Position numbers and translations under genes: made by a program
Assembly (NCBI GenBank): GCA_035285325.1
Contig: JAYKJB010000078.1
Span: 1 to 34,050, forward strand
From: Candidatus Sericytochromatia bacterium
GTDB taxonomy: Bacteria; Cyanobacteriota; Sericytochromatia; S15B-MN24; JAQBPE01
Direction of reading: 5' to 3'
DNA length: 34,050 nt
Notes under the pieces: model-generated
Seen by the model: the letters and a program-made list of their open reading frames with translations, nothing else
Database searches by the model: none
What the model was told of the DNA's origin: nothing
In this document: one piece after another, positions 13,291 through 16,070 of the stretch
Layout of the letters: every line of letters begins with the position of its first letter
Numbering within the stretch: the stretch's first letter is position 1

Positions 13291-13851
13291 ATGTCGACCC
13301 AAGACATCATTCATCGCGCCGAAGACAAGATGAAAAAGGCGATCGCCGCCACCCAGCGGGATTTCGCCTCCATTCGTACCGGGCGGGCCTCGGCCGCTCT
13401 GCTCGACCGGATCTCCGTGGACTACTACGGGGCCGAAACGCCGATCAAATCGATGGGGAACATCTCCACTCCCGATTCGCGCACGATCCAGATTCAGGTC
13501 TTCGATCGCGGCTCGGTGGGCCTCGTCGAGAAGGCCATCCACAAGAGCGACCTCGGCCTCACCCCCAACACCGATGGGCAGCTCATTCGACTCAACATTC
13601 CGCCCCTGACGGAGGAGCGGCGCAAGGATATGGTCAAGGTGGCCAAGAAGAGCGCCGAAGATGGCCGCGTGGCCATTCGGAATGTGCGGCGCGACGAGAT
13701 GGACGCCGTGAAGAAGCTCGAAAAGGCCAACGAGTGCACCGAAGATGACCGCAAGCGCTCGGAAGACCAGATTCAGAAGCTGACCGATCGCTTCATCAAG
13801 GAACTCGACGAGTTGCTGGCGCACAAGGAACGGGAGATCCTGGAGGTCTGA
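13291..13851 (+). CDS. frr: ribosome recycling factor
   Basis: RRF, with EF-G, splits the post-termination ribosome. The 186-aa length matches the family (185 in E. coli). The helical domain I carries [17 protein letters not shown], domain [12 protein letters not shown], and the C-terminal helix contains [11 protein letters not shown] and ends HKEREILEV. The start ATG 13291, after GGAAGGA, replaces a longer frame from 13189 that overlaps pyrH and adds no conserved sequence. Its stop codon shares one base (TGATG) with the start of the next small ORF, which implies translational coupling. Confidence 0.97.
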
Positions 13852-14087
13852 TGTGCGAGCCTGCGACACTCCTCGGATTGTCGTTCGGTGAGGCGCAGGC
13901 CCGGTTGGTTGCGGCAGGCTTGCCGTGCCTGCCGCCTCAACTGGCGTGTGTGCCCCGCCGCGCCCCGGCGGCCCGTGTGCCCGCTGATTGGCGTGTGCTG
14001 AAAGCGGAACTGCGCCCAGAAGGCTATGCGCTGGTGATCGCCGCCCCCATGACGACGCTGACGGAGAGGCTTGCCGAACCGTGCTGA
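13851..14087 (+). CDS. small uncharacterised protein between frr and cdsA
   Basis: I do not recognise this 78-aa product. Its start overlaps the frr stop by one base (TGATG) with GGAGG upstream, and its stop overlaps the cdsA GTG by seven bases. That is tight coupling on both sides and good evidence it is translated. The N-terminal piece LGLSFGEAQARLVAAGLP and the later RPEGYALVI vaguely recall the start and end of a PASTA repeat (G-x-x-x-x-x-A-x-x-x-L-x-x-x-G-L), but a full domain is not present. It has no signal peptide or membrane segment. In many bacteria uppS occupies this position between frr and cdsA; this ORF is far too short to replace it. Confidence 0.6.
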   Translation: MCEPATLLGLSFGEAQARLVAAGLPCLPPQLACVPRRAPAARVPADWRVLKAELRPEGYALVIAAPMTTLTERLAEPC

Positions 14088-14887
14088 AGCTTCGGGTTCT
14101 GAGCGGGGCGGCCTTCATCGTCGTGTGTCTGGCCTGTCTCTGGGCGGGCGGGATCGCTTACATGGCGATGATCACGGTCTTCGCCCTGTTGTGTGTGCGC
14201 GAGTTGTGTCGTTTGTTCGCGCTCAAGGGCTACGCGCCCGCCACCATGCTGATCACCGCCTCCGTTCTGGTGATGGACGTGCTGGCTGGGTTGATGGGCC
14301 CAACCTACATGGCGCCGCTGTTCACTTTCAGCGCGATTGCCATTCTGGTCTGGCTGCTCACCCGTATCCGCCCTCGTGCGGGCATCGCGGACATTGCGAC
14401 CAGCTGGTTTGCGCTGATCTACATCGGTTTCTTGCCCTGTCACCTGATTCTGGTGCGCAACCTGCCCGAACCCTATGGCTTTCAGTTCAGTGTCCTGCTC
14501 AACACCTGCATCTGGGCCACGGACATCTTCGCCTATTTCGGGGGACGCTGGCTGGGGCGCACCAAGTTGCTGGAGGCTGTCAGCCCCAAAAAGACCATCG
14601 AAGGGAGCCTCACAGGAACTGTCTGTGCCGGCGCCCTCGGGGCGCTTTGGGCCTCGATTTTCGCTTTTCCCTGGGTTCACGGACTCGCCTTGGGCCTGAT
14701 TGTCAGCATCGTGGCCCAGATTGGGGATCTGACGGAATCCCTTCTCAAGCGCGATGCCGGCACCAAGGATTCTGGCACGGCCATTCCCGGCCACGGGGGC
14801 ATGCTCGACCGCCTGGATTCCTATCTGCTCACCGGTGCGGCCGTCTACTACTACCTGCGCTGGGTCTATCACCCCTGGCTGCCCTGA
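14081..14887 (+). CDS. cdsA: phosphatidate cytidylyltransferase
   Basis: CdsA makes CDP-diacylglycerol from phosphatidate and CTP in the inner membrane, the branch point for phospholipids. The 268-aa protein is mostly hydrophobic with about seven to eight predicted spans. It carries the complete family signature near 220-246: SLLKRDAGTKDSG, then IPGHGGMLDRLDS. GTG 14081, with GGAGAGG upstream, is chosen over the longer frame from 13988 because that extension is polar and lies inside the 78-codon ORF. It overlaps that ORF by seven bases and ends the rpsB-to-cdsA block; dxr, often next in other bacteria, is absent here. Confidence 0.95.
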   Translation: MLKLRVLSGAAFIVVCLACLWAGGIAYMAMITVFALLCVRELCRLFALKGYAPATMLITASVLVMDVLAGLMGPTYMAPLFTFSAIAILVWLLTRIRPRAGIADIATSWFALIYIGFLPCHLILVRNLPEPYGFQFSVLLNTCIWATDIFAYFGGRWLGRTKLLEAVSPKKTIEGSLTGTVCAGALGALWASIFAFPWVHGLALGLIVSIVAQIGDLTESLLKRDAGTKDSGTAIPGHGGMLDRLDSYLLTGAAVYYYLRWVYHPWLP

Positions 14888-15014: not shown

Positions 15015-15030
15015 TGTGAGTTTTGTCACA
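15015..15030. promoter_or_regulatory. CRP/FNR-family-like operator, TGTGA-N6-TCACA
   Basis: TGTGA (15015-15019), the six bases GTTTTG, and TCACA (15026-15030) form a perfect CRP-type palindrome flanked by A-rich sequence. The central six bases are also the -35 of the overlapping SigB-like promoter, so a protein bound here would be expected to block or reshape initiation. Confidence 0.5.
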
Positions 15031-15044: not shown

Positions 15045-15174
15045 ATTGACTGGGTGTCGGCGAATCTACGGGCCGACCAGCCGCGCCAAGGGGAGGGGGC
15101 GCGCGTTTTGCGGTGTGCGCCACGTTCGTATGGATGTGCTGGCCCCGCGTGCGCGTGCTGGAAAGGAGGCTGCT

Positions 15175-15507
15175 TTGCACAGACCGAGCGTCAACGAGGA
15201 ATCCTGGTTCCGGGAGCAAGAGGCGCGCAGACAGCAGGACCGACGCGCCGAGGTGGAGCATCGGCGGGAAGTCGAGGAGCGGAAACGCCTGGGCGAGTAC
15301 CTGCTCGAAAAGGGCTACATCACGCTGCTTAATCTGGAGGCTGCGCTCCAACGGCAGCAGCACCTGGCCAGTCGGGGGCGACGGGTCGTGCTGGGTGAGT
15401 TGCTGATCGAGATGAATCTGGTGAGGGGCCCTCAGGTACAGGAAGCGCTGCTGCATCAGCGCCAAGCCCTGACGGATGGCGCTGCCTATGTGGAAATTCG
15501 GCGCTAG
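15175..15507 (+). CDS. small protein with tandem MshEN-like (c-di-GMP receptor type) motifs
   Basis: The 110-aa product has an N-terminal charged segment opening NEESWFREQE (7-16) and a polar helix to ~36. Residues 38-61 then match the MshEN nucleotide motif: Arg38-Leu-Gly40, Leu43-Leu44, Gly47, Leu54, Leu58 and Gln61, all at motif spacing. Residues 72-95 repeat it in degenerate form (Leu73-Gly74 and Gln95 kept; Val72 replaces Arg, Asn81 replaces Gly). MshEN domains bind c-di-GMP at the N-terminus of some type IV pilus and secretion ATPases; here no ATPase follows. TTG 15175 is preferred because GAAAGGAGG lies upstream and the N-terminus then aligns with the zinc-ribbon gene at 15735; the frame from 15016 would start inside the promoter. 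c-di-GMP binding is inferred. Confidence 0.6.
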   Translation: MHRPSVNEESWFREQEARRQQDRRAEVEHRREVEERKRLGEYLLEKGYITLLNLEAALQRQQHLASRGRRVVLGELLIEMNLVRGPQVQEALLHQRQALTDGAAYVEIRR

Positions 15508-15531
15508 CAACAGGGGACGTTAGTCGTGATG

Positions 15532-15561
15532 GGCCTCCGCGGTGCGGGGGCCAATTTTTTT
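15532..15561 (+). terminator. rho-independent terminator after the MshEN-like gene
   Basis: The stem GGCCTCCGC/GCGGGGGCC (15532-15540, 15544-15552, one T-G pair) with a GGT loop is followed by AA and seven T (15555-15561). It ends the MshEN-like transcript, so the zinc-ribbon gene needs its own promoter. Confidence 0.85.
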
Positions 15562-15680
15562 AGCGTCCACTCAGGCTCGGTGGGCTCATGTCTCAGACCG
15601 CGGCCTTGGGATGAGGCGCGTCGGCTCGCTCCCAGGGCCGGCAACGTCCTGCCTGATGGCGTGGGGCGGCTGCCAACCAG

Positions 15681-15686
15681 GGGTAT
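15681..15686 (+). promoter_or_regulatory. GGGTAT element before the zinc-ribbon gene
   Basis: GGGTAT recurs here, 49 bases before the TTG start, embedded in a GGGG-TATAAG-CCCC palindrome. It lacks the GTTT -35 seen at the two other GGGTAT sites, so a SigB-like promoter is only possible. TATAAG at 15684-15689 could be a sigma-70 -10, also without a clear -35. Confidence 0.25.
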
Positions 15687-15734
15687 AAGCCCCCTGCCAC
15701 CATCGTCGAGGACTAGATTGAAAGGAGTGCCGGT

Positions 15735-16070
15735 TTGACGAATCCGAGCGAAAACGAGGAAAACTGGTTTCGCGAACAGGAGCGCCGGAAGCGAGAAGAT
15801 GAAGCCCTGGCCGAACAGCATCGGGCCGATGTGGCCGCGCGGGATGCGCGCAAGAGCATGCACTGGATGAAGTGCCCCAAGTGTGGCGCGGACTTGCGGG
15901 CGCGTCGCTACGAAAATATCGAACTCGATGAATGCGTGGAATGCCACGGAACCTGGCTCGACGCCGGTGAACTGAAGGCTTTGGCCCAGGAGAAGGCGGG
16001 CGGATTGTTTGGCTTCCTGACCCGGAAGCGCGGCAGCACAGGCCCTTTGCCTCCCCTACCGCCTCGCTGA
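15735..16070 (+). CDS. TFIIB-type zinc-ribbon protein
   Basis: This 111-aa protein carries a zf-TFIIB-family ribbon: MKCPKCGADL, then after 16 residues CVECHGTWLDAGEL, giving C-x2-C-x16-C-x2-C with the family's typical TWLDAGEL. The first 40 residues are highly charged and begin NEENWFREQE at residues 7-16, the same positions and nearly the same sequence as the MshEN-like protein upstream. The C-terminal tail is short and ends in prolines. Such ribbons are small cytoplasmic metal-binding proteins of unknown function. TTG 15735 follows AAAGGAG. It has its own transcript, because a terminator precedes it, and is convergent with the TauE-like gene. Confidence 0.85.
   Translation: MTNPSENEENWFREQERRKREDEALAEQHRADVAARDARKSMHWMKCPKCGADLRARRYENIELDECVECHGTWLDAGELKALAQEKAGGLFGFLTRKRGSTGPLPPLPPR

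Follow-up and report, generated by a model that had tools for sequence, protein, structure and literature searches.

A probable chimeric gene of a Sericytochromatia bacterium with a zinc-ribbon protein head and an MshEN-type body

Two adjacent genes and their shared head

The window, which is the whole stretch of 34,050 nucleotides analysed here, carries the genes pyrH, frr, and cdsA, followed by two small open reading frames (ORFs) and then, on the opposite strand, TauE and PBP1A. The identities of pyrH, cdsA, TauE, and PBP1A were confirmed by family models, while frr was recognised by eye. A 78 aa ORF between frr and cdsA (13851-14087) overlaps the start of cdsA and has no Pfam match. The features of the locus, by position in the window, and the one related sequence elsewhere in the genome are:

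14081..14887, + strand: cdsA (phosphatidate cytidylyltransferase; Pfam CTP_transf_1, E 1.5e-59), the conserved upstream anchor, in the same place in the related genome G001
15015..15030, no strand assigned: perfect palindrome TGTGA-N6-TCACA in an AT-rich stretch of the gap between cdsA and the 110 aa gene
15161..15169, + strand: ribosome-binding site of the 110 aa gene and 5' limit of its DNA similarity with the ribbon gene
15175..15507, + strand: probable chimeric gene, 110 aa, TTG start (family models and alignment)
15175..15282, + strand: head, residues 1-36, with the core NEESWFREQE at 7-16, probably taken from the ribbon gene
15286..15357, + strand: MshEN motif I, residues 38-61, RLGEYLLEKGYITLLNLEAALQRQ, key positions intact
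15388..15459, + strand: MshEN motif II, residues 72-95, VLGELLIEMNLVRGPQVQEALLHQ, with R1V, G10N, and L17V
15532..15561, + strand: likely intrinsic terminator, a 9 bp stem with 8 GC pairs followed by AATTTTTTT
15720..15727, + strand: ribosome-binding site GAAAGGAG of the ribbon gene
15735..16070, + strand: single zinc-ribbon (TFIIB-type) protein, 111 aa, TTG start, with the original head as residues 1-36
G000:C32:48102-48290 (contig C32 of the same genome): paralogue of the body of the 110 aa protein, within a DUF4388-MshEN protein

Both small ORFs begin with TTG behind a ribosome-binding site, as had been read from the sequence alone, and both sites are strong ones: the 110 aa ORF has AAAGGAGG at a spacing of 5 nt from the TTG at 15175, and the ribbon gene has AAAGGAG about 6-7 nt from the TTG at 15735. 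The sequence-only reading had also reported an N-terminal tag shared at residues 7-16. This is indeed present, as NEESWFREQE in the 110 aa protein and NEENWFREQE in the ribbon protein (9/10 identical), and it is longer than was claimed, since residues 1-36 of the two proteins align without a gap and are identical at 18 of 36 positions (50%). For residues 2-36 the ungapped score is 94; the highest score among 200,000 shuffles that keep the composition is 62. At the DNA level, the similarity begins at the GAAAGGAG ribosome-binding site and extends through the head, with a score of 67 against 49 for the best of 500 shuffles. Residues 1-41 of the ribbon protein, used as a query against all six frames of the 3.83 Mb genome, have the 110 aa protein as their sole match (E 1.2e-4, residues 3-36). 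The next match reaches only E 0.3, and no third head-bearing frame was found in this six-frame search, so that the search for further heads proposed in the earlier reading places the head on these two ORFs only. E, R, and Q are abundant in both heads, as might be expected were the likeness due to chance between two charged N-termini, but this explanation is refuted to near certainty by the failure of any shuffle to attain the observed score, by the genome-wide E value, and by the inclusion of the ribosome-binding site in the DNA similarity.

The C-x2-C-x16-C-x2-C ribbon previously read in the second ORF is there as C47-x2-C50-x16-C67-x2-C70, and the protein passes the Pfam Zn_ribbon_TFIIB model (PF13453) with 50.5 bits, the cut-off being 22. 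The 110 aa protein has the head in common with such small single zinc-ribbon TFIIB-type proteins, but it has no cysteine at all, no four-cysteine ribbon, and no match to PF13453.

Between the two genes, 25 bp past the stop codon of the 110 aa ORF, there is a terminator-like hairpin (folding z -4.7), with one terminator-like site found in the region against 1.0 expected by shuffling. This suggests that the 110 aa gene terminates its own transcript, and the two genes need not be co-expressed; their co-transcription is made unlikely by the hairpin. No match to a σ70 promoter was found between 14850 and 16150. The palindrome, which lies about 145 bp before the start of the 110 aa ORF, is the E. 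coli CRP consensus, TGTGA-N6-TCACA, and a possible CRP-family site. The pattern occurs at six sites in the genome, against none for a reversed-pattern control. At a second of these sites (L142) both the core and the flank are similar to those at 15015-15030.

Donor genes and the origin of the fusion

A profile of the head, run on 18 genomes of the class and 386 genomes of the phylum, found four clear ORFs: the two in the window and two ribbon proteins, one from G001, which is of the same family, and one from G009, of the same order. P4, E8, E9, F12, E16, and H29 are invariant across all four. Ribbon proteins of Lentisphaeraceae and Thermodesulfovibrionia MAGs have a recognisably similar start, in which P4, E8, and E16 are kept, and a wider search for ribbon proteins brought up mainly proteins that have two ribbons and no such head. 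As the head is found on ribbon proteins of other genomes, its original owner, judged from these sequences, is the ribbon family, with the MshEN-like gene as the recipient. The CPKCG of the window protein is CPRDG in the ribbon orthologue of G001 (L123:4061-4357), one ribbon cysteine being gone and the head retained. The nearest solved structure to these small zinc-ribbon proteins is Thermus ZifS (8YOZ), and a literature search on PF13453, zf-TFIIB, 8YOZ, and ZifS found no functional study of the family. The present analysis gave no support to the metal- or redox-sensing role that the sequence-only reading had suggested for the ribbon protein.

The body has a different source. The best match of the body (residues 36-98 of the 110 aa protein) in the genome is the C-terminal part of a protein of 321 residues encoded on contig C32, with 57% identity (E 7e-18). 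The N-terminus of the C32 protein is DUF4388 (35.8 bits, cut-off 25), and all 10 of the 10 genomes of the order that were examined have a DUF4388-MshEN relative. In a tree of 62 columns, a 98/99 branch parts the other families from the f1 copies together with the 110 aa protein, whose own branch is long, making its exact placement unsure. The C-terminus of the DUF4388-MshEN proteins of the order recurs as a diverged copy in the body, which shares their ten-residue linker and unusual motif II, but the 110 aa protein is without DUF4388 and the middle region and has the ribbon head. The swapped module suspected in the sequence-only reading is thus supported and gains a direction, the head coming from the ribbon gene and the body from the DUF4388-MshEN family. 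On this sequence evidence, the 110 aa gene is very probably a chimera of two donor genes.

MshEN is a module much used in this genome, with 31 motif matches spread over about 20 frames, several of them small stand-alone ORFs of 110-190 aa. In one ORF (G000:C124:46191-46745, L131) a C39-like peptidase domain (Pfam PF13529, 43.4 bits, cut-off 24) comes after three MshEN units, and the product might be a c-di-GMP-controlled peptidase.

In the fusion, a duplicate of the 5' end of the ribbon gene, comprising its ribosome-binding site, TTG start, and about 36 codons, would have been linked to a copied C-terminal MshEN segment from the DUF4388-MshEN gene, and the product placed between cdsA and the ribbon gene. 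In G001 (contig C427) the gene order is the same without the chimera, and the ribbon gene starts 20 bp past the stop codon of cdsA. The simplest reading of this synteny is that the chimera was inserted in the present lineage, while the fusion may alternatively be older than the split between this genome (G000) and G001, with loss of the chimera in G001. The head of the chimera is identical to that of the G000 ribbon protein at 17 of 33 positions and to that of the G001 ribbon protein at 9 of 33, which would suggest that the fusion came after the split. For the body, dS to the C32 paralogue is about 1.3, greater than the 0.61 between the G000 and G001 copies of that paralogue, and the fusion may therefore predate the split. 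The head thus points to a later date and the synonymous distance of the body to an earlier one, and these sequences give no firm date. The pairing of head and MshEN is absent from every other genome among the 98 relatives searched, though the class is thinly sampled, and none of them yielded an orthologue of the chimera. An assembly artefact is unlikely, given an identity of only 57% between body and paralogue and a head that differs from that of the ribbon gene at most synonymous sites. The component modules were already known; their pairing is new and known from one genome.

The MshEN motifs and c-di-GMP binding

The 24-residue motif that had been read at residues 38-61 and the second copy at 72-95 are both present in the body. 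Against the published motif, RLGxx(LVI)(LVI)xxG(LVI)(LVI)xxxxLxxxLxxQ (PMC5013675), motif I (RLGEYLLEKGYITLLNLEAALQRQ) departs from the strict form solely at position 11, which is Tyr, and at position 2 it has the consensus Leu where the nearest paralogue has Phe. Motif II does not have the full set of Arg, Lys, or Leu at position 1, Leu-Gly at 2-3, Gly at 10, Leu at 17 and 21, and Gln at 24: it has Val at position 1, Asn at 10, and Val at 17, with Leu-Gly at 2-3, Leu at 21, and Gln at 24 retained. The linker between the motifs is 10 residues, as in the donor family, rather than the 5 that would make a 53-residue unit. In the donor family, positions 1 and 10 of motif II are Trp and Asn. The description of the second copy as degenerate therefore stands in so far as it departs at key positions, but part of this departure was inherited from the donor family.

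The chimera passes the NCBIfam c-di-GMP_motif model NF053729 (41.1 bits, cut-off 38), and a profile search of the PDB matches it to PilF and MshE. In the predicted structure, the head continues past the RLG motif as one unbroken helix (residues 6-46), with a mean pLDDT of 82 (ten rows). Foldseek places this model with MshE bound to c-di-GMP (5htl, probability 1.00) and with PilF GSPII-B (9gl5, probability 0.99, 0.9 Å over 59 columns); with an alignment of only about 60 residues, the TM-scores come out modest (0.46), and the E-values are weak. With Vibrio cholerae MshE (5HTL) and Thermus PilF GSPII-B (9GL5) the chimera has in common the two-motif, four-helix unit and a full motif I, and its modelled fold superposes on these ligand-bound structures. 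It differs from them in having neither ATPase nor MshEN_C subdomain, in its altered motif II, in its linker of 10 rather than 5, and in the foreign helical head fused to helix 1. The earlier proposal of a c-di-GMP-receptor-like body is upheld, as a type of body, by sequence and predicted structure, and the two readings taken jointly, a chimera with a body of this type, are reasonably probable.

Whether the body still binds the nucleotide is a separate matter. The genome encodes diguanylate-cyclase domains, with 14 GGDEF matches, and together with the many MshEN units this would suggest that c-di-GMP is likely to be present in the organism. With motif I intact and motif II altered, in part by inheritance, binding by the chimera is plausible and slightly favoured, if not assured. 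That the body has lost binding and is now a plain helical scaffold has somewhat less than an even chance. The Arg to Val and Gly to Asn changes in motif II and the ten-residue linker would fit such a loss, as would the fact that the odd motif II is common to the donor family. So would the extension of helix 1 by the head, since PilF GSPII-A, which does not bind, owes this in part to a helix 1 that is extended and capped and hinders the ligand (PMC12002112), an analogy that counts against binding here. Against loss, motif I is complete, with the consensus Leu at position 2 that the nearest paralogue lacks, and motif II still has its LG pair (2-3) and Gln 24. Thermus PilF GSPII-B, whose two position-1 residues are Lys and Leu, binds c-di-GMP at 6 nM; the authors widened the consensus for this position to R/K/L. 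Hydrophobic residues at position 1 raised the affinity of GSPII-B, and such a residue does not on its own abolish binding (PMC11731258). The Val in motif II is therefore not a clear loss.

The head and its possible role

Since the search found no chimera orthologues, selection was judged from paralogues, and the figures are comparisons over few codons. Between chimera and ribbon gene, codons 7-16 of the head core have changed synonymously 4 times on 4.2 synonymous sites, with a single residue replaced, while codons 17-36 have a pN of 0.45. For the body against the C32 paralogue, omega is about 0.28, with synonymous sites near saturation. This suggests that the head core has been kept by selection. 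The head might instead be a passive leader, the start and first codons of the ribbon gene having been kept for expression and the head merely solubilising the body, which would account for DNA similarity that begins exactly at the ribosome-binding site and for the wide divergence of residues 17-36. This is made rather unlikely by residues 7-16, which remain 9/10 identical though nearly all of their synonymous sites have changed, and by the retained P4, E8, E9, F12, and E16, which are the positions conserved in ribbon orthologues.

The chimera protein would most likely be a small stand-alone c-di-GMP effector, holding the nucleotide in MshEN mainly through the intact motif I. Head and MshEN helix 1 would form one long helix, with the ligand site at the root of the borrowed part. 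In PilF the first turn of helix 1 has to unfold for c-di-GMP (PMC11731258), and entry of the ligand into the chimera would likewise need this turn unwound, breaking the helix between head and body. Binding would in this way alter the pose of the head, and hence the docking of its Trp11-Phe12 end on the partner of the ribbon head. That c-di-GMP gates the head through helix 1 is proposed tentatively, since the modelled head runs into helix 1 and the first turn unwinds in PilF. That the heads of the chimera and the ribbon protein dock on one common partner, as the sequence-only reading suggested, is possible though rather doubtful, the sole ground for it being the selective keeping of the ten core residues. 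The whole scheme, a c-di-GMP switch made by fusion in which the ligand unwinds the docking helix, with the chimera as ligand-controlled competitor or partner of the ribbon protein, is on present evidence improbable as a complete account.

Of similarly low probability is an arrangement in which the two heads pair with each other as a heterodimer through their long N-terminal helices, c-di-GMP then acting on the ribbon protein directly. In its favour, the models show each head as a helix of about 40 residues that continues into the body, and the two genes adjoin. From the sequence, these helices are highly charged and have no clear hydrophobic heptad, the ribbon protein keeps its head in genomes that do not have the chimera, and a likely terminator separates the genes, all of which argue against pairing.

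A probable chimera of this kind would be a traceable case of bacterial gene birth, in which parts of two genes were joined at a syntenic locus, with both donor genes still present in the genome and the unfused locus seen in a relative. A head with a function would amount to an unrecognised docking element in the small zinc-ribbon family, and the chimera could then serve as a natural probe for the partner of this element.
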